This document shows, one piece after another, positions 91 to 60,133 of a DNA stretch of 64,000 nucleotides. Numbering within the stretch: position 1 is the stretch's first letter; every line of letters begins with the position of its first letter. A program made the translations under genes and the position numbers. Source of the DNA: an uncultured Opitutia bacterium (GTDB lineage Bacteria > Verrucomicrobiota > Verrucomicrobiia > Opitutales > Puniceicoccaceae); NCBI GenBank assembly GCA_913056175.1, contig CAJXLM010000007.1:1-64000 (forward strand), read 5' to 3'. Below the pieces are notes generated by a model. That model was not told the DNA's origin, did no database searches, and was given only the letters and a program-made list of their open reading frames with translations.

Positions 91-1022
91 ACACTCCAAT
101 CCAACACCGCCCTCCCTCTAAGTCAAGCGTGTATAAAGCCTGTCATTATATTCCAGCCAGCGGGCTTAGAGGAGGGGAGTGGGCGGGGGATTCGGGGGGA
201 ATTGTGGGGGAGTGTGGGGGCGGGGTTTTTCTGGGGGTTCGGTTGTGTGGAGGGTCGGGGATCAGCCGTGCTGGGAAGGTTGGGAGGTTTTTGTCCAGCG
301 GGTGGTCATGTTCCGGTGCCTTTTCCTCGCGTGCTGGCGTGCTGGCGGGACGCGGGGTGGTGGGTGGGCTGGGCTGCGGTGTTTCCTCGGCTTTTTCTTG
401 GACGGTCTTGGTCAGCGGTGGCGACCTTTTTGGGGAGGGCGAGCCGGGGGCCGTTGTTGGGGATTCTCGTTCCCGTGGAGAAAGAGGGGTGGGTCCGTGG
501 TTTTGAGGTCGGGAGGCGTGAGAGGGTGGGTGTCCACCGTTTGCTGGTGGACCGGGGAACGGAAACCGTGGGTGTCTGCGCTTGCCGTGCCTTTGGTGCG
601 GGCGGAGGAGGGGTGGGTTCGGGGGCTGCCGAGGTCGGGCGAACGCCGTGGGTGTCTGCGATGGTTTGTGGGTATCTGCGATGGTTCCGACCCCTTTCGG
701 GTGCGGAGCGGTGGGTGTCCGTGAGGGTCCGGGAAGTCTGTGAGGGTCGTGGGTGGAGGGTGTGGCGTTCGCTTGGCCGGTGTCTGGTGCGGAGGGACGG
801 GCAACGGCCCGCCCAAGCGGTCCTCCCCGGCCTCCCCTCGCCGTGCTCGAGAGGTCGGGGTCCGGAAAGGGTAGGACGACCATGCCGTGGCCGTCATGGT
901 CTCCCTGTCAGCATTGCTGGGTCCGGCCTTCAGGAACCCGTGTCCGTGAAAGTTTCTCCACGGGCGCCTAGGGAGAACGGGAGGCCTGGCCGCGGGTGAA
1001 AGTACGTCGCCCCCCCCCGGCC
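91..1022. repeat. Gene-free stretch with repeat island 1 (TGGGTGTC cores)
   Basis: No convincing gene is visible. The stretch is strongly G-rich on the plus strand, which keeps several frames open without a protein-like composition. Exact TGGGTGTC cores lie at 527-534, 569-576, 649-656 and 712-719, with a one-base variant (TGGGTATC) at 669-676. Three of these five continue as TGCG. All are in plus orientation. The remainder of the stretch holds nothing recognised. Confidence 0.75.
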
Positions 1023-30931: not shown

Positions 30932-31236
30932 GGAGCGTGTCCCCCGGGCACGGGGAGAAAGGCGCACCGGGAGAGAACTCTCGGCGAGTGCCCGGTAGCG
31001 AGGACGGGGAAGGCATCGGCGGTCGCAGGCGCCCCGTGAGGGCGCCCGGGAAAAAGAGCCCCTCCCGCGCCTCCAGGGGAACGAAGAAGGGCCAAAGGTG
31101 TGCGACAGAATCGGAAGTAATTTTTTCATGGAGCAACGGAGAACAGCGGAATTCTCCTGCAAACCCTCTCCGGATCAAGGGCAAAAGTTGAAAAATGGAC
31201 ACCCAACTTCCCCTTCCCGGCCATCCCTCCATCGCA
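30932..31236. other. Gene-free upstream region of the PEP-CTERM gene
   Basis: The promoter of the PEP-CTERM gene must lie here. An AT-richer patch with a T-run is at 31118-31128. No operator or RNA structure recognised. An open minus-strand frame extends to 31162 but lacks a signal peptide at that start. Confidence 0.4.
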
Positions 31237-32087
31237 GACACCCAGTCCTCCACGAGGGCAACCCCACCACCACTACTACTACTACTATCGCAGACACCCA
31301 TATTTCCCCAGGGCACCGCGAAAGACCGGCCCCAATGACCCCCACCCATCGAGCGCAGAGAGAGCAACACAACCTAGTTCGCCGGGAGAAACCTCTCCGC
31401 TCCGCATTCGGCGCTGGACTGTATGCGGACACCGATTCTCCGGGAAAGCCGGCCAAGCCCCTTCCCTCGACCCGGTTGGTCCTCCACGGCCATCCAAGCA
31501 GGCCCCTCCCTGAGGATCGCACCCGTCCGCGGGACCTCCAATCGCAGACACCCAAATTTCGAGCTGCGCGAGCTGCGGACCCCTCCCATTGCAGGGCCGA
31601 CGGTGTTGCCTCCCCGGAAGGTGCGCCGCTGTTAGGGTTCAAGGCAGACAACAAATGGGTGTCTACTTTAGTCGGTCGCTTTCCCCTTCCCCTCTACCCC
31701 ACCATCGCAGACACCCATTTATTCCCAGGGCACCGCGAAAGACCGGCCCCAATGACCCCCACCCATCGAGCGCAGAGAGAGCAACACAACTTGGTTCGCC
31801 GGGAGAAACCTCTCCGCTCCGCCCCCGGCGCTCTCGGCGCTGTATGCGGACACCCATTCTCCGAGAAAACCGGCCAAGCCCCTCCCTCGTCTCGGTCGGT
31901 CCTCCACGGCCATCCCAACAGGCCCCTCCTCCCCCGGGATCGCGCCCGTCCGCGGGACCCCCAATCGCAGACACCCAAATTTCGAGCTGCGCGAGCTGCG
32001 GACCCCTCCCATTGCAGGGCCGACGGTGTTGCCTCCCCGGAAGGTGCGCCGCTGTTAGGGTTCAAGGCAGACAACAAATGGGTGTCT
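31237..32087. repeat. Repeat island 2: two tandem units of about 380 bp bounded by inverted cores
   Basis: Unit A spans 31287-31664 and unit B 31704-32087. Each begins ATCGCAGACACCCAT and ends AAATGGGTGTCT, so the unit ends are inverted copies of the core. Inside, both carry a further ATCGCAGACACCCAAA (31541 and 31964) and the same flanks, including a palindrome-like GAGCTGCGCGAGCTGCGG. A single extra core lies at 31237-31244. The copies differ mainly by scattered substitutions and a short insertion in B near 31822-31838. Cores: 31237, 31293, 31547, 31656, 31710, 31849, 31970 and 32079. No coding potential recognised. Confidence 0.9.
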
Positions 32088-32510
32088 CCTTTGGTCCCTT
32101 TGGTCCGGCGGTCTTACCGCTCCGACTCCGGTTCTTCTTTGGGTTCCGACCAGCTAAGGGCTACGACTGTGGGATTGAAAGCTCAGCTCCCGCTTCAGGA
32201 GTGGCCGTGGATGGATCCGTAGGGGAAGGGATGCGATTTGGACGGGTGGAAGTGGCTGGACGGGAGAGGTGGTAAGGTCATCCACTGGATGTCCGCGTTG
32301 GATGTCCGCGAGAGTGGGGGATGACGCGGGACTGCCGGTCAGGGGGAGGCAGGAGAGCGGGAGTTGATGGCCCGGGATGAGGGAAATCGCAGGCATGGGG
32401 TTGCGGTTTCGGCCAGAGGCTGCGATGTTACGACAGTTCTTTGGACAGTCGTACGCAGAAGGGTGTGCAAACCTTGCAACCCTTCCTCGTATGCTGCAGT
32501 CCCATTGTTC
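32088..32510. other. Gene-free region upstream of ssrA
   Basis: Holds the ssrA promoter, which I cannot place exactly; a TTGCAA at 32474-32479 is a possible -35 element. Two near-core variants TGGATGTCCGCG follow one another near 32286 and 32301. Otherwise nothing recognised. Confidence 0.4.
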
Positions 32511-32892
<382 letters not shown>

Positions 32893-33219: not shown

Positions 33220-34275
33220 TCAGGCAGCCCACCGTGCTTCGCGATACAAACGCCGACTCCCTTCCTTCCCGCGGAACCAGCGCTGCCCTCTTTCCCTCGC
33301 TTCCTCGGTAAGGCGGTCGCATTGTCCTACCATGCCGTGGAAGAGCCTCCCGTAGGCTGCCACATTTTCAGCCCACCGCTGGGGATCGAGAGACAGCCGC
33401 TCGAGTGTCCGTTCCAAAGCCGCGGGCACAGGATCGGTCCGGTGGCCGGGAAGTGCCCGCAGCGTCCACTGAATCAGGTCGAGGTAGTGGTCGAGGTCGA
33501 TGCCGACTCCGATTTCCTCCGTCCGGTCCAGGGGAGCGAGCCACGCCGCCTCGGACAACTTCTGGGTCTCACGGTCTGTTTCCCGGCGCGGGGTGCGGGT
33601 GGGGCCATCTGTGGATCCACGAGCCTGTATTCTTTCGGCGGCTTGGCGGGCATTGAGTCGGTCGTAGGCGCTGGTGAAGAAACTGTCCTCCAAGCCACTC
33701 GCAAGCGCCGCGCGCACCGGGTTCAGGTCGACATACACCATACACGCGAGGACCGCACCTTCGTCGACCAAGGCCTGGCATCGGAAGCGACCCTCCCAAA
33801 AACGGCCAGTGCACTCGTCTTCGCGGTTGGCGCGGCGGGCGATCCACTCGTTGAGACAACGCATGAACCAGCTGAGGTCCGCCAGCCGGGACCGTACCTC
33901 TGCAAGTCGCACGGGATCACGAACGAGACTCTCCACCCGCAGATTCCACGCATCCTCTCCCACCCGGTGGTTCCCGGGAAAGACCCGGCACCAGCGCTCC
34001 GCCACTTCGCGTGCGCTCCACTGCGCGGCGCGGTCCGGACGATTGCGGAGGACGAGATGCGAGTGATTGCTCATGACCGCGTAGGCAAACACTTCCACTG
34101 CAAACTGGCTGCTGAGTTCGCGGATGCGTTCCCTTACCCATGCACGGCGGTGCTCATAGCTTTGGCCCGTGGAGGCATCATACCCGCAGAGAAAGGCCCG
34201 CCGCACGCAGCGGGAGATGCAGTGGTACACACCGATCGTACCGGGCCGGACAATTCTGGATCGTGGTGCTGCCAT
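33220..34275 (-). CDS. REP-associated tyrosine transposase (RAYT, IS200-like Y1 family)
   Basis: 351 residues. The start RPGTIGVYHCISRCVRRAFLCG (read as RPGTIGVYHC then ISRCVRRAFLCG) is the first beta strand of Y1 transposases. MSNHSHLVLR (about 67-76) is the HUH metal motif in its H-S-H form, typical of RAYTs in Planctomycetes and Verrucomicrobia. WEGRFRCQALVDE and MVYVDLNPVRAAL (about 185-197) contain the catalytic tyrosine. The C-terminal 130 residues are charged and family-specific. RAYTs are single-copy domesticated transposases that act on REP or REPIN hairpins; this one lies between repeat islands 2 and 3. It is intact, so the protein is probably active. Confidence 0.88.
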   Translation of the reverse strand: MAAPRSRIVRPGTIGVYHCISRCVRRAFLCGYDASTGQSYEHRRAWVRERIRELSSQFAVEVFAYAVMSNHSHLVLRNRPDRAAQWSAREVAERWCRVFPGNHRVGEDAWNLRVESLVRDPVRLAEVRSRLADLSWFMRCLNEWIARRANREDECTGRFWEGRFRCQALVDEGAVLACMVYVDLNPVRAALASGLEDSFFTSAYDRLNARQAAERIQARGSTDGPTRTPRRETDRETQKLSEAAWLAPLDRTEEIGVGIDLDHYLDLIQWTLRALPGHRTDPVPAALERTLERLSLDPQRWAENVAAYGRLFHGMVGQCDRLTEEARERGQRWFRGKEGSRRLYREARWAA

Positions 34276-34312: not shown

Positions 34313-34833
34313 CAGTTTTTTCTTTTTCGCAAAGCGCCCGCGGCTGAGAACCCGGAATTGAGAGGTCCGCTCATTTTTTGTCTCCGCAGCGTGCCGACCG
34401 CACCAGCCTTTGCAGTCGAGACGGCCAGCGTTGTCATGGTCGGTAAGGCTCACGAACTGGCCCGGGTTCTTGAGCGGAGCGGCCCCTCGTGCCGGTTGCG
34501 GGAAATCCCGGAGGAGTCTCCCGACTCGCAGGCCCCCAACCTCTGTGCCGCCAGCACTTTGAGTGGGGAAACACCGCAGCACGGCGTTCGGCCATCCCAC
34601 CTGCCGTTTACGAGGCGAAAGGATCCGGGCGGTGGGGCGAGGGAAAAGGCGAGTCTTGGTTCCGGAGCGTCCGGTCCCGGAGACGATCGGGACCCCGCAA
34701 TGGTGGATCTCCGCCAGAGAGGACCGAGGCCCTATGCGGTTCCACCGAATTCCTGCGCCGAGGGGGGTGGCTTGTGCGATGGTCCTGAGCGGGCGTAATC
34801 CCCTCTCCGTCGCTCCTTTGAAAAGTGGGTGTC
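34313..34833. other. Gene-free stretch between RAYT and the dipeptidase pseudogene
   Basis: No gene recognised; open frames have low-complexity, Arg-rich translations. One core octamer TGGGTGTC sits at 34826-34833, exactly beside the stop codon of the dipeptidase gene. Confidence 0.5.
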
Positions 34834-35631
34834 TTATTCTGGGACGGACGGGATGGGGAAGTTGAAATAGGTGTCGGGGAACGGCTCGTCGGCGAGAGTG
34901 TAGTGCCACCATTCCTCCGGGTAGGGTTCGAAGCCGTGGCGTTCCATCGCCGAGCGCAGTATTTCCCGGTTCGCGCGCGCCTGCTCCGAGATTGCGTCAC
35001 TGCCGTGATGCGACGTTTCGCTGAAGCAGTCGAAACCAGCTCCCATATCAATCGAGTTGTCGGGCCACCGCTCCCCATGAGGCGCCGTGCAGGGCCGCAG
35101 TGGGTCGCCCGGCATCCACGGAGCGGTTGGGGTGGCCGGCCGCTCGACAAGGGTGAGGTCCACCGTGCTCCCCCGCGAGTGTCCGGAGCGTTCGGCGATG
35201 TATCTTTCCGGGAAAAGCCGGTCTTTTGGCACGTCCGGATAGAACTCAGCGCGCATGGCGTCGTCGTCCGGGTCGGCCGCCCAGCGCACGAATGCGTCGA
35301 CCGCGCGCTGGGGGCGGTAGCCGTCGTAAACCTTGAGGGTGTAGCCCATGGGGCGAACGTCCGCCTGCACCTTCGCGAGGGCTTCGGCTGCTTCCCGCGT
35401 CAATACGACCTCCGGCGCCTCGTAACCGGGAACAGGTCAACCGATGAAGTTGTGCGCGCCGGCGTAACGAACCTCCGTGAGGATGGTGGGGTCTAGGGTC
35501 TGCAAATGCACGAATCCGGGCGGCAGCGCCTCGGTTGGGTGGTCGGTGGTCTCGGCTGCCAGGCTCGAAGGTGGCGTCGCCACGCAGAGGGCGACGAGGC
35601 TCACGGGAACGGAGAGGGCGAGGGTTTTCAC
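34834..35631 (-). pseudogene. D-alanyl-D-alanine dipeptidase (VanX/DdpX-type, M15D), interrupted by a stop codon
   Basis: From GTG 35631-35629 a signal peptide (KTLALSVPVSLVALCVA) precedes GFVHLQTLDPTILTEVRYAGAHNFIG, which is the start of the VanX fold (shown here as GFVHLQTLDPT and EVRYAGAHNFIG). Then TGA at 35439-35437 replaces the Arg or Lys codon of the family motif G-[RK]-P-V-x-G-Y. Translation would continue in the same frame with PVPGYEAPEVVLTREAA, so one base change explains the break. The downstream 189 codons keep all zinc ligands: SGHSRGSTVDLTL and EWWHY. The enzyme would hydrolyse periplasmic D-Ala-D-Ala. A shorter protein starting after the stop would lack the signal peptide and first strand. 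Confidence 0.85.
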
Positions 35632-36202
35632 CGCCTGGGATGGGATGGCTTGCCTCTCCCGGTTCCGTACCCATGCCGTGGAGGGATCGGAGGGATCGGC
35701 CGGGGGCGAAGGGTGATCGCAAAAGAAAATCCGTCGCGCGCACCGGGAAATCCGGGAGCACATACCCCCGAGGGTAAGATCGACGATTCCCCAAGGTGGC
35801 TGACTCATGCCGATGATTCCGAACATCCCGGCGAGCACAGGGCAACCGTCCGTTTGTTGTTCGCCGCCCGTAGTCCCGGCCGACCCCAACTTTTGGGTGT
35901 CCGTCAAATTCGTCACGGCCGACCCCAACTTTTGGGTGTCCGTCAAATTTGCCGGGTCGCTGCAGAATCTCTGGGTGTCTGCGCAATTCCAGGGAGGCCC
36001 TCGTGCAACCGTGACCACTACGAGCGGTTCCCAGAGAAGTTGGTCTATGGGTGTCTATGTTTGCAGTGGGTGTCTACGGTTAGTCCGCATGGTTAGTCCG
36101 CTGGGTGTCTATGTTTTCATTCACGTTTACGGTGGGTGTCTGCGTTACGGCGGAAATGCCCGCCGGGTTTGACGGTAGATTAGCCCCCATGGTTGGTGGA
36201 GT
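35632..36202. repeat. Repeat island 3 in the divergent gap upstream of the BCCT gene
   Basis: Seven TGGGTGTC cores, all plus orientation, at 35894, 35933, 35972, 36048, 36067, 36102 and 36133. The first two lie in a 39-base tandem repeat (35877-35915 and 35916 onward) reading CGGCCGACCCCAACTTTTGG at its start. The third core follows after another 39 bases but with different flanks. The last four are spaced 19, 35 and 31 bases apart. The promoter of the BCCT gene must lie at or within this array. 35632-35870 shows nothing recognised. Confidence 0.85.
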
Positions 36203-38736: not shown

Positions 38737-40122
38737 GGCTGGAGATCCTTTCGTTTTGATCCGCGGGCCGGCGAACCTAAAGCGACAAGGGCTAGGGTGA
38801 GGCTGCGGGGATGGTTTCCTCTGGGCCTCCCGGGATCTCGCCCGCCTTTGCGCGATCCCTGGAGTGGGAGGGCAGAATTCATCCCGTCACGGTCCCTCCG
38901 AAGAGCGAGGGGTCACGGAAGTGTTGCGCAGAGACCGGAAGCCTGGGCGCTTTCTCGGGGAAACCCTGCGGCGACTCGCTCATCCCATGTGTAGGGACGC
39001 ATCCGAAATCTCGAGCAATTTTGAAGACACCCATTGGACCGTGCAGAAGATTTTGCGAGATTTTGCAGACACCCATTGGATTGAGGACCGCTGGCAGACA
39101 CCCACTCCACCACTCCACGGTGAGGATCTTTGGCGGACACCCATGCAACTGAGAAGGTTGCCGACGGCAGACCCGGCCACGGGACCATGCCTGCTGTGGG
39201 GTGGGCTCGGTTTTTCGGCGGACAGCGGATCGGGGGGGTCAGCGGCCTAGAATGGAAAGGATCTCGGCTCCCGGAACCTCCGGCAGGAGGCTCGCGCGAG
39301 AAAGAGCTCATGGAGATCCATAAGGAAACGGCAGGGAACCTTGGGTCCGTAGGACCTTGGGTTCCGAAGGCTGCTTCGATGGGTGTCTGCTATTGGAGCC
39401 GAAGTGGCGAGCCCGTGCTTTTGGTGGTCGGTGAGAGACACGACGGATCCTGGCGAGGGCATGCCGGGACCGGATGCTGGTGGCACCCGATCGATCGGTC
39501 GGGAAGATCCACGGCTTTGGTCCTTTCCATTAATGGGTGTCTGCGATCTGGGTCGCAGCGGATCCTGGAGATTTTGCAGACACCCATTGGATCGAGGGCT
39601 ATTGGCCGACACCCATTCCACCGTCGAGATCTTTGGCGGACACCCATGCAACCGAGAAGGTTGCCGACGGCGGACCCGGCGACGGGACCATGCAAGGTAT
39701 GGGGCGGGCTCGGGTTTTCGGCGGGCGGCGGATCGGGGGGTCAGCGGTCTAGAATGGAAAGGATCTCGGCTCCCGGAATCTCCGGCAGGAGGCTCGCGCC
39801 AGAAAGAGCTCATGGAGATCCATAAGGAACCGACAGGGAACCTTGGGTCCGCAGGACGATGGATTCCGACGGCTCTTTCTATGGGTGTCTGCCATTGGAG
39901 CCGAAGTGACGAACCCGTGCCTGCGGTGGTCGGTGAGAGGCACGACGGATCCTGGCGAGGGCATGCCCGGACCGGATGCTGGTGGCACCCGATCGATCGG
40001 TCGGGAACATCCACGGCTTTAGTCCTTTCCATCTATGGGTGTCTGTGATCGGGGTCGTAGCGGATCCCGCGCGGCTGAATTCAAGCTTCGGGCCCTGGAT
40101 GCTCTCTGGTAAGGATAGGGGC
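38737..40122. repeat. Repeat island 4: two near-tandem units of about 490 bp
   Basis: Unit 1 is 39057-39548 and unit 2 is 39568-40050. Each starts GAGATTTTGCAGACACCCATT, continues with two more GACACCCA cores within about 75 bases, then about 240 bases of unique unit sequence, and ends with two TGGGTGTC cores. Core positions: 39026, 39068, 39097, 39136 (reverse), 39380, 39534 (forward), 39579, 39608, 39639 (reverse), 39882, 40036 (forward). So each unit is flanked by core clusters pointing inwards. The copies differ by scattered substitutions while the cores are kept. 38737-39020 and 40051-40122 carry the divergent promoters of the nucleoside hydrolase and the pyrophosphatase; no boxes are clear. 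Confidence 0.9.
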
Positions 40123-42303: not shown

Positions 42304-43481
42304 GAAGGCGGGAAGGATCGTGGAGGGATCGCCGGAACCAAAGATGGAATCGAATCCGATTCGCTCATCGTAGCCGGAGCCCTCTGCGGTCTAGGGCTAA
42401 ATATTACCCGTCCTTATCCCGGTTCTTGGTATTTCGCAGGAGGGGGGAGAACGGCCGGAGGGATTCGGATCCTTTTTCGGGATTCGGAGGGGGGCCACGA
42501 TAACGTAGATTCTCCCGCGGGAGAGGCTCCCTCTCCCGTAAGCAATGTCCGGTGGGCGAGCCGGGCCGGACTTCGGGAATGGTGTATTGTCCAGGCGATC
42601 AAAAGGGACGGGGAAGCCTTGCTGGGATCCGGGAAAAGACGGGGTGTCCACACAAAGCAAAGAGGGGTCTCCGGGCATCACCCTTCCGTTGAGGAGGAGA
42701 GCGCTGGAGGGCGGTAGTCGCAACGCGGAGGAAAGAGAGGGGACAAACCTTGGAGTCCGGATTGGTTCCAATGCCTCCGGAACAAATGGGTGTCCGTGAT
42801 TCCCCGTGGTTTTCTCGGTTTCCCCCTCTTCTCCGCATGCTCTTCGGAGAAGAGGGGTGTCTGCATGACTCCGCTTCCTTCGCCGTGCCCTGCCGGGTTG
42901 TGGGGCGGTTTGGTGGAGGGTCCCTTGGGATGGGTGTCCGTAAGTGGGTACTGGAGGGCGGTGGTCGCAACGCGGAGGAAAAAGAGGGGACAAACCTCGG
43001 AGTCCGGATTGGTTCCAATGCCTCCGGAACAAATGGGTGTCCGTGATTCCCCGCGGTTTTCTCGGCTTCCCCCTCTTCTCCGCATGCTCTTCGGAGAAGA
43101 GGGGTGTCTGCATGACTCCGCACCCTTCGCCGTGCCCTGCCGGGTTGTGGGGCGGTGTGGTGGAGGGGCCGCCTGGGATGGGTGTCCGTAAGTGGGTACA
43201 ATTTTGTGGGCATCCTCTGCACGCACCCCGGGCCGATTCGGCGGATGGGGCGCATGGGTTGGCTGTCCGTCATTGGGCAGGTTGTGTGGGTGTCCGCCTG
43301 AGTGGAAAGCCAGTCCCCCGAAGGTGGTTCGTCCGCGTGGCCGGAGGGGGCGGGGGAGGCCTTGCCGGGTGTCGGGGTTGGGGATGGGAGAAGATAATGG
43401 GTGTCTGCAATCGGGGCTTCTCACCGATGGGGTGGCGGAGAATCGGATTGCGGGCCGGGCGGAGCCGGGTAACAGGAAGGT
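42304..43481. repeat. Repeat island 5: head-to-tail duplication of a 247-bp unit
   Basis: Copy 1 is 42704-42950 and copy 2 is 42951-43198, directly abutting, both starting CTGGAGGGCGGT and ending GTCCGTAAGTGGGTA. Each contains ATGGGTGTCCGTGATTCCCC, a GGGGTGTCTGCATGACTCCG variant and a final ATGGGTGTCCGTAAGTGG. Within each copy TCTTCTCCGCATGC and its partner GCTCTTCGGAGAAGA form an imperfect palindrome. The copies are about 95 percent identical by eye. Exact cores: 42787, 42931, 43034, 43179, 43287 and 43398, all plus orientation. 42304-42640 shows no gene; the OsmC promoter must lie near 43410-43481. Confidence 0.92.
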
Positions 43482-47531: not shown

Positions 47532-49511
47532 GGAGCGTCGGAATGGTGGAGAAGATAGGGGGAGAGCAAAGCGGTCGGGAGCAACACGAGGCAAAGGAAG
47601 GACTCCGAATTTTCCTTGGAGGCGACGGACCCGGAAAGACCGCTGTTGATCGTGGATGTCGGGCTGGGTGGGAACTCCCGCCTTCGCTCGGTACTCAAGC
47701 CGGCGGAGAGAACAAACGCGCGGGGAGGATCGGGGCTCTTGGCCCTCGGGCCCAATGGCAGACACCCATTCCTTCCGCGATCCATCCCCTTCGGAGAATT
47801 ACAGACACCCAATCACTCCCCGGCCCATCCCCTTCGCGGAAGCCGCAGAGGCCAGGTTCAACAAGCCGAGAGGCACGACCCCTGGGCCCTCCCTCCGGGA
47901 CCCCAGCGGATTCATCCCCGAGCCTGCCCGCTTCGGCTCCCAGCCGAGGATCCTTTGCTGGGCGGGGGGGGGCGAAAGGTGTGCGAATCAATGGGTGTCC
48001 GCGATTTCACGACTCAATGGGTGTCGGCAATTTCCTCCCCAATTTCCAAGAACTTAGGAGTGCCCGCGATTCCGGTTCTCGTGCGCAACAAGTGGGTGTC
48101 TGCGACTCCCAATCCTCGAACCAATGGGTGTCTGCGGTTTCCTCCCGGGAGGTAGAGTCCTTGGGTTCCTTCTCCTCCGGTTGTCCAAAAGGTTCCCACC
48201 TGGGCTGTTGCTTCCACTTCTACGTCGAGCCTTTTTCGCCGCGCGGGGAGGGAAAGGGGCGAGAACAGATGGGTGTCCTCGATTTTTCTCGCAGGGAGGA
48301 TCGGGGCTCTTGGCCCTCGGGCCCAATGGTGGACACCCATTCCTCCCGCGATCCATCCCCTTCGGAAAATCACAGACACCCAATTACTCCCCGGCCCATC
48401 CCCATCGCGGAAGTTGCAGGGGACAGGTTCAACAAGCCGAGAGGCACGATCCCTGAGCCCTCCCTTCGGGACCCTAGCGGATTCATCCCCGGACCTGCCC
48501 GCTTCGGCTCCCAGCCGAGGATCCTTTGCTGGGCGGGGGGGGCGAAAGGTGTTCGGATAAATGGGTGTCTGCGATTTCCGCTAGGCGAACCAATGGGTGT
48601 CTATAATTTCCTCCGCAATTTCCAAGAACTTAGGGGTGCCCGCGATCCCGGTTCTCGTGCGCAACAAGTGGGTGTCTGCGATTTTTCTGACTCTCGTCCA
48701 AGAAAAAATGGGTGTCTGCGATTTTTACTGCTCGGGCCCAATGGCAGACACCCAATTACTCCCCGACCCATCCCCATCGTAGAAGTTGCAGGGGACAGGT
48801 TTAACAAGCCGAGAGGCACGATCCCTGGGCCCTCCCTCCGGGACCCCAGCGGATTCATCCCCGGACCTGCCCGCTTCGGCTCCCAGCCGAGGATCCTTTG
48901 CTGGGCGGGGGGCGAAAGGTGTTCGCTGAATGGGTGTCTGCGATACCCTCTGCAGGTCTGGAAAAATGGCAGACACCCATGCATTTCGGCCCCATCCTTG
49001 GTGGGGAAGGATCCTCGGAAAGGATCAACCGCCCGGGAGGTAGGGTCCTTGGGTTTCTTTTCCTCCGGTTGTCCAAAAGGTCTCCTCCTGGCCCATTCCT
49101 TCCACTTCTACGCGGAGAATTCTTCGCTGTGCGGTGATTGAAAGAAGCGGAAACAGATGGGTGTCCTCGATTTTCTCCTCCTCCGGTTGTCCAGAGGGTA
49201 CCCTCCTGGCCCGTCCCTTCCACTCCCACGCCGGGGATTCTTCGCCGCGCGGGGAGGGAAAGGGTCGGGAACAGGTGGGTGTCCCCGATTTTTCTGCGCG
49301 CTTGGATCCGTGATTCCTGTGGTGGGTGTCTGGGATCTTCTCCCAATCTTTCGGGAAGCGTGGCGCTTTCTCCGTTCTTGGAGGAGGCCCCCGTTCGCGG
49401 GGGAGGAGGCGAGTGCCCGGGGGGTGGGGCGCGGGTTGGCGGTGAGGGGTCGGTCCTCTCCGCGGGGTCGGGATGGGCGTGGGCGGAGGTCTGGGGGGCG
49501 AGGGTTGGCGG
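47532..49511. repeat. Repeat island 6: multi-copy unit array, the longest in the window
   Basis: Units start GAGGATCGGGGCTCTTGGCC at 47725 and 48296, and a truncated third unit starts at CTCGGGCCCAATGGC near 48731; from about 48961 a shuffled fourth block repeats parts of the first. Shared parts include a 110-base block with ACAAGCCGAGAGGCACGA and the block TTCCAAGAACTTAGG. About 19 exact cores lie between 47758 and 49330, in both orientations. Two pairs are perfect inverted repeats: 48709-48719 with 48744-48754 (11 bp) and 48930-48941 with 48969-48980 (12 bp). 47532-47724 and 49336-49511 show nothing else. No protein-like frame was found. Confidence 0.9.
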
Positions 49512-58599: not shown

Positions 58600-60133
58600 G
58601 CCCGGCGGGGCGCATCCGGAGCCACCGCCACCGCCGCGCCTTCCCCGGGCGGTGGCCCGCGTTTCCCGACCTCCAATGCGCCCCGCGCGGCTGCAGAAAT
58701 CTCCGCGCCATTCGCGGACACCCAAGTTCGCCGAACACAAAACGCCCAGCCGGAGCCCGCCAACCGGACGGGATCCGCGGACACCCATCCGCCAGAAATC
58801 CGGAGTTCGCAGACACCCATAATCTTGGCCGTCCCCGAAAAGCCTCGGAATTTGCGTGGAAAAATTGCGGACAGCCATATTTCTCGGAGAAGGAAGCCCG
58901 CGGGAGATTTTTCCGACACCCCGACGTCGAGAAAACAAAAGCGATCCTTTAGAAGCCCTCCTCATCTCTCCCCGCCGGGCAGCGCTCCCCGTTCCCCGGG
59001 GTACGATCCCTCCGGAGAGAGGGCTGCGGAGGAGGGGGAGTCTTTGGATGCACTGGGCCAGAGGAGTCGATTCCCGGGGTAAAGGCGGAAGGGGAGGAAA
59101 AGAAAATGGGTGTCCGCAAATGCCCGTCATTTCCTCTGGCTTTGTCTTTCGATGGGTGTCCGCAAAGGCCGATCGGACCGGATTGGGGAGGAGGAGGTCC
59201 GCGCCATCCGTGGACACCCATTTGCCAGAAATCCGCGGGCACCCAAGAGTTCGCAGACACCCACAATCTTGGCCGTCCCCGAAAAGCCTCGGAATCCGCG
59301 TGGAAAATTGCGGACAGCCATATTTCTCGGAGAAGGAAGCCCGCGGGAGATTTTTCCGGCACCTCAACGTCGAGAAAACAAAAGCGATCCCTTAGTAGCC
59401 CTGCCCATATCTCCTCGCCGGGCAGCGCTCCCCTCTCCCCGGCCTGGAATCCCTCCCGGGAGGAGGGGGAGTCTTTGGATGCACTGGGCCAGAGGAGTCG
59501 ATTCCCCCGGCGAACGCGGAAGGGGAGGAGGAGGAAATGGGTGTCTGCAAATGCCCCGCAATTTCCCCTGGCTTTGTCTTTCGATGGGTGTCTGCAAAGG
59601 TCGATCGGGCCGGATTGGGGAGGAGGAGGTCCGCGCCATCCGCGGACACCCAAGTTCGCTGAAGGCAAAACACCCGACCGGCGCCCGGCAACCGGAGGGA
59701 ATCCGCGGGAGTCCGCAGACACCCATAAATCCGTGCGCCATCCGCGGGCACCCAAGAGTTCGCAGACACCCACAATCCCGGCCGTCCCCCGAAAGCCTCG
59801 GAATCCGCGTGGAAAAACTGCGGACCCCCCTATTTTTCGCAGAAGGAATCCGCGGAAGTGGCAAATCCGCAACCCCCCGACCCGGGAACGGGGAAGCCTC
59901 TTGCGCAACGACGTACCGCACCCTGGGGTTGCAGCGTCCTGAAAATACAGAAGGACCGCGTCCGAGGTACCCAGGTATCTTTCCATTTCCTCCCCCCGGC
60001 TCGCCGAATCATGGAGGGAGATCACCTGTGGAGGTGCCCCACCGCGAACGGGTCCCCGAGCGAGGGGTGGCAGAAGCGAGGAGAAGGAGGGGTGTCCGCC
60101 CTTTTTCCGCGAGGTCTCCCGGCCTCATGCTTT
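58600..60133. repeat. Repeat island 7: 430-500-bp unit in two full and one partial tandem copies
   Basis: Copies: 58705-59200, 59201-59632 and a truncated one from 59633 to about 59855. Each begins GCGCCAT followed by a (G/T)CGGACACCCA core, then two further cores, a conserved block ATCTTGGCCGTCCCCGAAAAG and TGCGTGGAAAAATTGCGGACAGCC, and ends with two ATGGGTGTC(C/T)GCAAA cores before the next unit. About 12 exact cores occur; reverse cores open the unit and forward cores close it. Two degenerate cores (GACAGCCA, GGCACCCA) also recur in each copy. No gene is visible; the tail 59856-60133 contains only one variant core near 60089. It separates convergent genes. Confidence 0.9.

Follow-up and report, generated by a model that had tools for sequence, protein, structure and literature searches.

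A subclass-2.3 RAYT and an outward-facing 8-nt core as probable partners in a family of insertion-sequence-like elements

The RAYT encoded in this window (the whole 64,000-nucleotide stretch of DNA analysed here, on contig C7 of a 2.61-Mb assembly of 84 contigs) appears to be the transposase of an insertion-sequence-like (IS-like) family, the ends of which are formed by an outward-facing core, TGG[G/A/C]TGTC, and a 10-nt tail. We suggest that the enzyme nicks about 10 nt beyond the core and that slipped re-extension from the nick builds the arrays of end copies seen outside the elements. We place the probability of this reading at about 0.7. Comparison of loci, orientation and phylogeny supports the view that the subclass-2.3 RAYT clade and the TGG[G/A/C]TGTC repeat belong together.

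The gene and a second, partial copy are placed as follows.

33220–34275, minus strand: intact gene for a RAYT (HUH/Y1 tyrosine transposase) of 351 amino acids, from the list of open reading frames and the catalytic residues.
About 35608–35808, minus strand: degenerate N-terminal RAYT remnant beside the array at 35.9–36.1 kb (tblastn, 27–32% identity, best E value 2e-5).

The description of the gene as intact in the earlier note is borne out, with the HUH and tyrosine-block residues in place. Both N70-H71-S72-H73 and Y181-V-D-L-N-P186 are present and, in an alignment of 75 homologues, are invariant except at Ser72, as are W160 and E161; the variable position of the NH-x-H motif is serine in the window protein and tyrosine in the consensus. 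The match to NCBIfam REP_Tyr_transpos scores 42 bits, under the cut-off of 80, and the Pfam Y1_Tnp score is just short of its cut-off. An AlphaFold model of the protein has a pLDDT of 90, and its best match in the PDB is 4er8, the E. coli RAYT–REP complex. The C-terminal half is helical and modelled with high confidence, and the protein is long, with extra insertions in the core and a C-terminal domain, as described for subclass 2.3. On its motifs (NH-x-H, WE and YVDLNP) and its length we assign it to TnpA_Y1 subclass 2.3. The same genome carries three distant Y1 proteins and a paralogue of 65% identity (C8:37801–38844), from which the window gene differs at 28% of first, 22% of second and 63% of third codon positions (dN 0.30, dS saturated), a pattern which indicates that both paralogues have been under selection at the protein level.

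The second RAYT-like N-terminus reported in the earlier note is real, but it is a mere remnant and adjoins the right-hand island of cores. It lies just upstream of the apparent signal peptide of what we take to be a D-Ala-D-Ala dipeptidase-like gene, represented by two same-frame open reading frames (34834–36018, minus strand) that look like a single gene split by an in-frame stop near 35437; this gene looks broken. On the other side of the RAYT, between it and its downstream core island, is a tmRNA gene (32511–32891, plus strand) with the tag AKDNVISFPGTAQEAMAA.

Seventy-nine loci of relatives were fetched, mostly on draft or metagenome-assembled contigs, by a retrieval ranked on E value and so weighted to close homologues. 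When the flanks of 80 RAYT loci were read away from the gene, the commonest 8-mer was TGGGTGTC, present outward in 44 loci and inward in four; apart from variants of this core and A/T-rich words, no other outward 8-mer was enriched. Base-by-base substitution showed tolerance at base 4 alone (G, A or C); the remaining variants were at or near noise. In this form the core occurs within 1 kb at 72 of 81 subclass-2.3 loci, which span the Verrucomicrobiota, Acidobacteriota and Gammaproteobacteria, and 258 of its occurrences point outward against 16 inward. The link between RAYT and repeat is much stronger and wider than had been suspected. The remaining nine loci, some of them cut by contig ends, have none within 1 kb. 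A core stands on both sides of the gene in 45 of the 69 loci at which both flanks are long enough, and a separate, later set of ten loci from plasmid records gave 22 outward cores and one inward, with eight loci positive.

Since these loci share ancestry, the counts are not independent, and the safeguards are the orientation control and a control with another subclass. For the latter, 18 RAYTs of another subclass from one genome of the same family (G003) had four outward and six inward cores nearby, that is, no link; nor was there any common outward word in more than seven of the 18 loci. That genome holds 38 copies of this other RAYT subclass (L110 among them) without a TGGVTGTC link nearby. 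A search of full-text literature, in which subscription journals are poorly covered, found the core word in unrelated papers only, and the RAYT papers searched do not contain it.

Median distances of the innermost core from the gene are 72.5 bp upstream of the start codon (interquartile range 67–91 bp) and 210 bp downstream of the stop codon (81 loci). So nearly fixed a distance from the start codon could indicate that the core is an operator or serves the RAYT gene in some other regulatory role, and is conserved for control and not for mobility. We regard this as improbable, because a mirror-image core stands 3' of the gene and because gene-less units bounded by two outward cores have end-to-end duplicates of their own. 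The statement in the earlier note that no core directly flanks the gene holds for the old window copy, which lacks an intact core in the customary position, 60–110 bp upstream, but not for its relatives. With that position empty the window copy may act only in trans, and it may be stranded.

The core also varies with the enzyme. In a phylogeny of 64 proteins, the state of base 4 requires 12 changes, against 25.4 for shuffled labels, and none of 200 shuffles was as low, so the repeat subtype follows the RAYT phylogeny, a correspondence that the earlier note had proposed as a check. The base is C in all eight Shewanella/Photobacterium rows (core form TGGCTGTC) and G in the five verrucomicrobial members of the window gene's clade (TGGGTGTC). 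Counting TGGGTGTCTGC across relatives gave no information, as the tails are species-specific.

Presence and absence across genomes, another check named in the earlier note, agree with this association. A subclass-2.3 RAYT was found in three of 177 relatives, which hold 39, six and one core doublets, whereas nine of the 174 RAYT-negative relatives hold one or two, a rate equal to that of the reversed control. Among 338 genomes sampled across the phylum the same three carry the RAYT and all three have doublets. One apparently RAYT-negative genome with doublets (G156) contains an N-terminal RAYT remnant elsewhere, and in G003 a divergent RAYT adjoins the one doublet examined; most doublets in the other RAYT-negative genomes look like chance. 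A possible exception is genus g181 (G352 and G432), which has a few real-looking TGG[GC]TGTC arrays, no recognizable subclass-2.3 RAYT and just a distant RAYT-like protein; its arrays possibly reflect a distant transposase or a missing contig.

L144, 1352–1762: array in genus g181.
L150, 302–332: array in genus g181.

Within the window TGGGTGTC occurs 75 times, against 2.0 expected by chance. The cores nearest the RAYT gene, at the distances given in the earlier note, which are correct, and three arrays on the plus strand are as follows.

34826–34833, plus strand: lone outward-pointing core, 0.55 kb upstream of the RAYT start (core scan).
31198–32086: core island 3' of the RAYT, 1.1 kb away, with seven cores on the minus strand and two on the plus strand, mostly outward.
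35894–36140, plus strand: array of seven outward cores, 1.6 kb from the gene, including a tandem copy of 39 nt that ends on the right at core +9.
42787–43405, plus strand: array of six plus-strand cores, with tandem 249-nt segments whose right ends lie 3 nt beyond core+10.
527–719, plus strand: array of four plus-strand cores near the contig end; the core at 649 has a tail copy that ends on the right at +10.

A stricter word, TGGGTGTCYGYRA, has 57 matches in the genome, while its reversed control has none. All 57 lie on five of the 84 contigs (C7, C8, the last 1.3 kb of C4, C27 and C73), and most are on C7 and C8, the two that bear a RAYT; core copies are regional and not dispersed genome-wide. 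Contig C27 carries a one-strand array of 12 cores, and no subclass-2.3 RAYT was found on it. In this genome the unit approximates to AATGGGTGTC[TC]GCGA[AT]TT, with the information at background by about +12.

The earlier note took the RAYT to be the candidate driver of a REPIN-like system. In a classical REP/REPIN system the core would be a degenerate REP and the RAYT would spread inverted core pairs as hairpins. Kinship of the protein with RAYTs (REP_Tyr_transpos, 4er8), its dependence on a cognate repeat and seven convergent, hairpin-capable core pairs speak for such a system. The conserved unit, TGGVTGTC, is however non-palindromic and lacks the GT[AG]G foot of a hairpin; when nine lead–core–tail units were folded and compared with shuffles, none was better than shuffled sequence (z from −0.5 to 1.2). 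The observation that the core itself is not a hairpin therefore stands, but neighbouring cores are mostly not the hairpin-forming pairs that had been supposed: of 68 pairs within 80 nt, 60 (88%) are direct. With copies also regional, the REPIN-like reading is already largely refuted, and we give it little credence.

We consider instead that the core marks the outward ends of IS-like and MITE-like elements, a reading which rests on where homology between copies stops. Among array members of one flank, identity is 0.59–0.81 at +1 to +9, 0.50 at +10/+11 and about 0.3 beyond, and it declines slowly over 30 nt on the 5' side of the core. When RAYT elements of the same genome are compared, upstream homology mostly stops within 0–7 nt of core+10 (for example at 0/0 in L061/L073 and 0/−1 in L018/L019), and in several cases downstream homology too ends near core+10. 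Subclass-2.3 elements thereby show what is expected of an insertion sequence, discrete ends common to copies at different sites. Pseudoalteromonas offers an orthologous intergenic region that lacks the gene; comparison with it places the insertion within about 12–20 nt of core+10, a resolution limited by divergence of the flanks, and no target duplication is evident at this site.

The same boundaries are seen in units without a gene.

31284–31673: MITE-like unit, copy 1, of 390 nt; it ends on the right exactly at core(31656,+)+10 and on the left at most 1 nt from core(31293,−)+10.
31701–32096: MITE-like unit, copy 2, 91% identical to copy 1; its right end coincides with core(32079,+)+10.
39026–40043: island of two copies of about 510 nt, in which the outward-bounded units 39126–39397 and 39629–39899 align end to end (90%).
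47761–49330: largest island, with outward-bounded units of 212–216 nt as homologous copies.
58717–59772: island with outward-bounded units 58802–59124 and 59246–59555 (87% identical end to end).

The left ends of the first two units both fall within 1 nt of core+10, and units 47794–48009, 48365–48579 and 48737–48948 of the largest island are 89–93% identical, nearly end to end. On C8, a unit of 500 nt and its copy 1.5 kb away (L105 7075–7573 and 9068–9575) have both ends at most 1 nt from core+10. Gene-less units between two outward cores thus exist as end-to-end homologous copies and look like non-autonomous, MITE-like elements of the same transposase; units of this kind account for much of the islands in the window. 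A series of gene-less, outward-bounded units surrounds the RAYT of C8 (C8/C27 loci L105, L106 and L108).

Past the element tip, the end is repeated head to tail in copies truncated on the 5' side; their 3' edge, at +10/+11, is sharp and their 5' edge gradual. The array at L067 is an example, reading TGGGTGTCCAGAGATTCC-GTGTCCAGAGATTCC-GTCCAGAGATTC, with a common right edge and differing left edges. A tail copy is present within 70 nt downstream of 98 of 213 cores, tail-only copies shorter than 7 nt being below detection. Right edges of the tail copies are mostly at +8 to +13, with a mode of 10; left edges range from −24 to +4, and source and copy most often adjoin, with a gap of 0. Arrays in the window show the same pattern in fewer cases. 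Left edges have peaks at +1 and −1, at the border of core and tail, so that to call them wholly random would be too strong. In two strains of Pseudoalteromonas shioyasakiensis (L159 and L164) the same insertion has different end arrays, with six and two upstream cores, which we read as a natural example of an array changing once the element has inserted.

Ordinary replication slippage or recombination in low-complexity intergenic DNA, the RAYT merely residing in unstable sequence, would account for tandem duplications of many sizes, and the islands do hold these. It fails to predict an 8-nt core that is invariant across phyla, its outward orientation on both sides of a single gene, a common 3' edge at +10 or co-variation with the transposase tree, and we think it the least probable of the explanations considered.

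The preferred mechanism, nicking followed by slippage, would run as follows. The transposase would recognize the hairpin-free core, perhaps by means of its subclass-specific extra domains, and is predicted to bind there and to nick the core strand about 10 nt 3' of the core, leaving a 3'-OH and a 5'-phosphotyrosine. The free 3' end would slip back on the template by a variable length, re-extend to the nick and be rejoined, so that every cycle would append a suffix copy whose right edge is fixed and whose left edge is ragged. A long slip would duplicate the core, creating more nick sites from which arrays could grow. Occasionally both ends may be joined, and the whole element would then move, mostly to nearby sites; the family may still be mobile at present. 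Plain slippage does not predict the peak of left edges at the border of core and tail (+1 and −1). To our knowledge HUH/Y1 enzymes work on one strand and the known ones require hairpins; inverted ends that have no hairpin would therefore imply separate processing of each strand, or a step in which duplex DNA is bound.

The main rival explanation attributes the arrays to insertion: the transposase would place 5'-truncated, linear or circular single-stranded end fragments into an element end that has already been nicked, and so target itself. The end-to-end anatomy is equally expected on this model, and it is favoured by a 640-nt 5'-truncated element copy that adjoins the tip of a full copy (L018) and by the non-adjacent unit copies edged at core+10 at L105. 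Most short copies nevertheless repeat the end of the sequence that directly precedes them on the 5' side, most often with a gap of 0, and slippage produces this with no intermediate. We judge array growth by insertion unlikely, though a serious competitor.

A stronger form of the slippage reading, which we advance tentatively and hold to be somewhat short of an even chance, is that subclass-2.3 enzymes are array builders, with a fixed nick at +10 and cyclic 3' extension on their own upstream sequence, in the manner of a telomerase-like ratchet whose 3' boundary is fixed. If so, end arrays and new recognition sites would arise without full transposition, a form of self-amplification which, as far as we could find, is so far undescribed for HUH enzymes. 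The nested, 5'-truncated arrays preserve a fossil record of a way in which an HUH enzyme may multiply its target.

It is useful to set these elements beside known systems. IS200/IS605 elements have subterminal hairpins, act on one strand and use a tetranucleotide guide. The present elements resemble this family (IS608 and ISDra2) in the HUH/Y1 fold and, if our nick position is correct, in cleavage at a set distance from the recognition element; they differ in having inverted ends and no hairpin at the core unit.

With the REPtrons and REPINs (RAYT groups 2.2 and 2.5, GTAG REPs) they share an HUH/Y1 protein placed between inverted sets of cognate repeats, co-variation of repeat and enzyme subtypes and, as the 258 outward and 16 inward cores at 81 loci attest, a cognate repeat flanking the RAYT gene; local build-up of repeats near the gene has been described for the Marinomonas REPtron Mb (PMC8266576). 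The differences are the lack of a hairpin and of a GT[AG]G foot, the head-to-tail 5'-truncated arrays and the edge 10 nt past the core.

The TIRYTs or TIRtrons of Di Nocera et al. (2013; PMC3733652), mostly of subclass 2.1, are RAYT relatives bounded by inverted repeats that are not REPs, some of these repeats forming families. Their common motif is GGGGWSAS, and the proteins fall in subclasses 2.1, 2.2 and 2.5 (PMC3733652; PMC6006769). Here the end word is TGGVTGTC, and the parts of that account consulted do not describe nested arrays or a fixed 3' edge. A RAYT relative with discrete ends that seemingly drives gene-less units is relevant to whether RAYTs should be seen as domesticated or as mobile.

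For the subclass-2.3 proteins themselves, the automatic and manual searches of Quentin et al. (2018; PMC6006769) gave no REP-like sequences. The window protein is alike in YVDLNP, WE and NH-x-H, in a length of about 325–350 amino acids with inserted and C-terminal domains, and in the presence of several diverged copies per genome. To that description our analysis adds an end motif that faces outward and is not a palindrome, together with the element edges and the arrays, and it widens the range of the subclass to the Verrucomicrobiota and Acidobacteriota. Subclass 2.3 is now provided with a partner word, an orientation, a spacing and a likely cleavage point, which opens both binding and nicking to direct assay with oligonucleotides of defined sequence.
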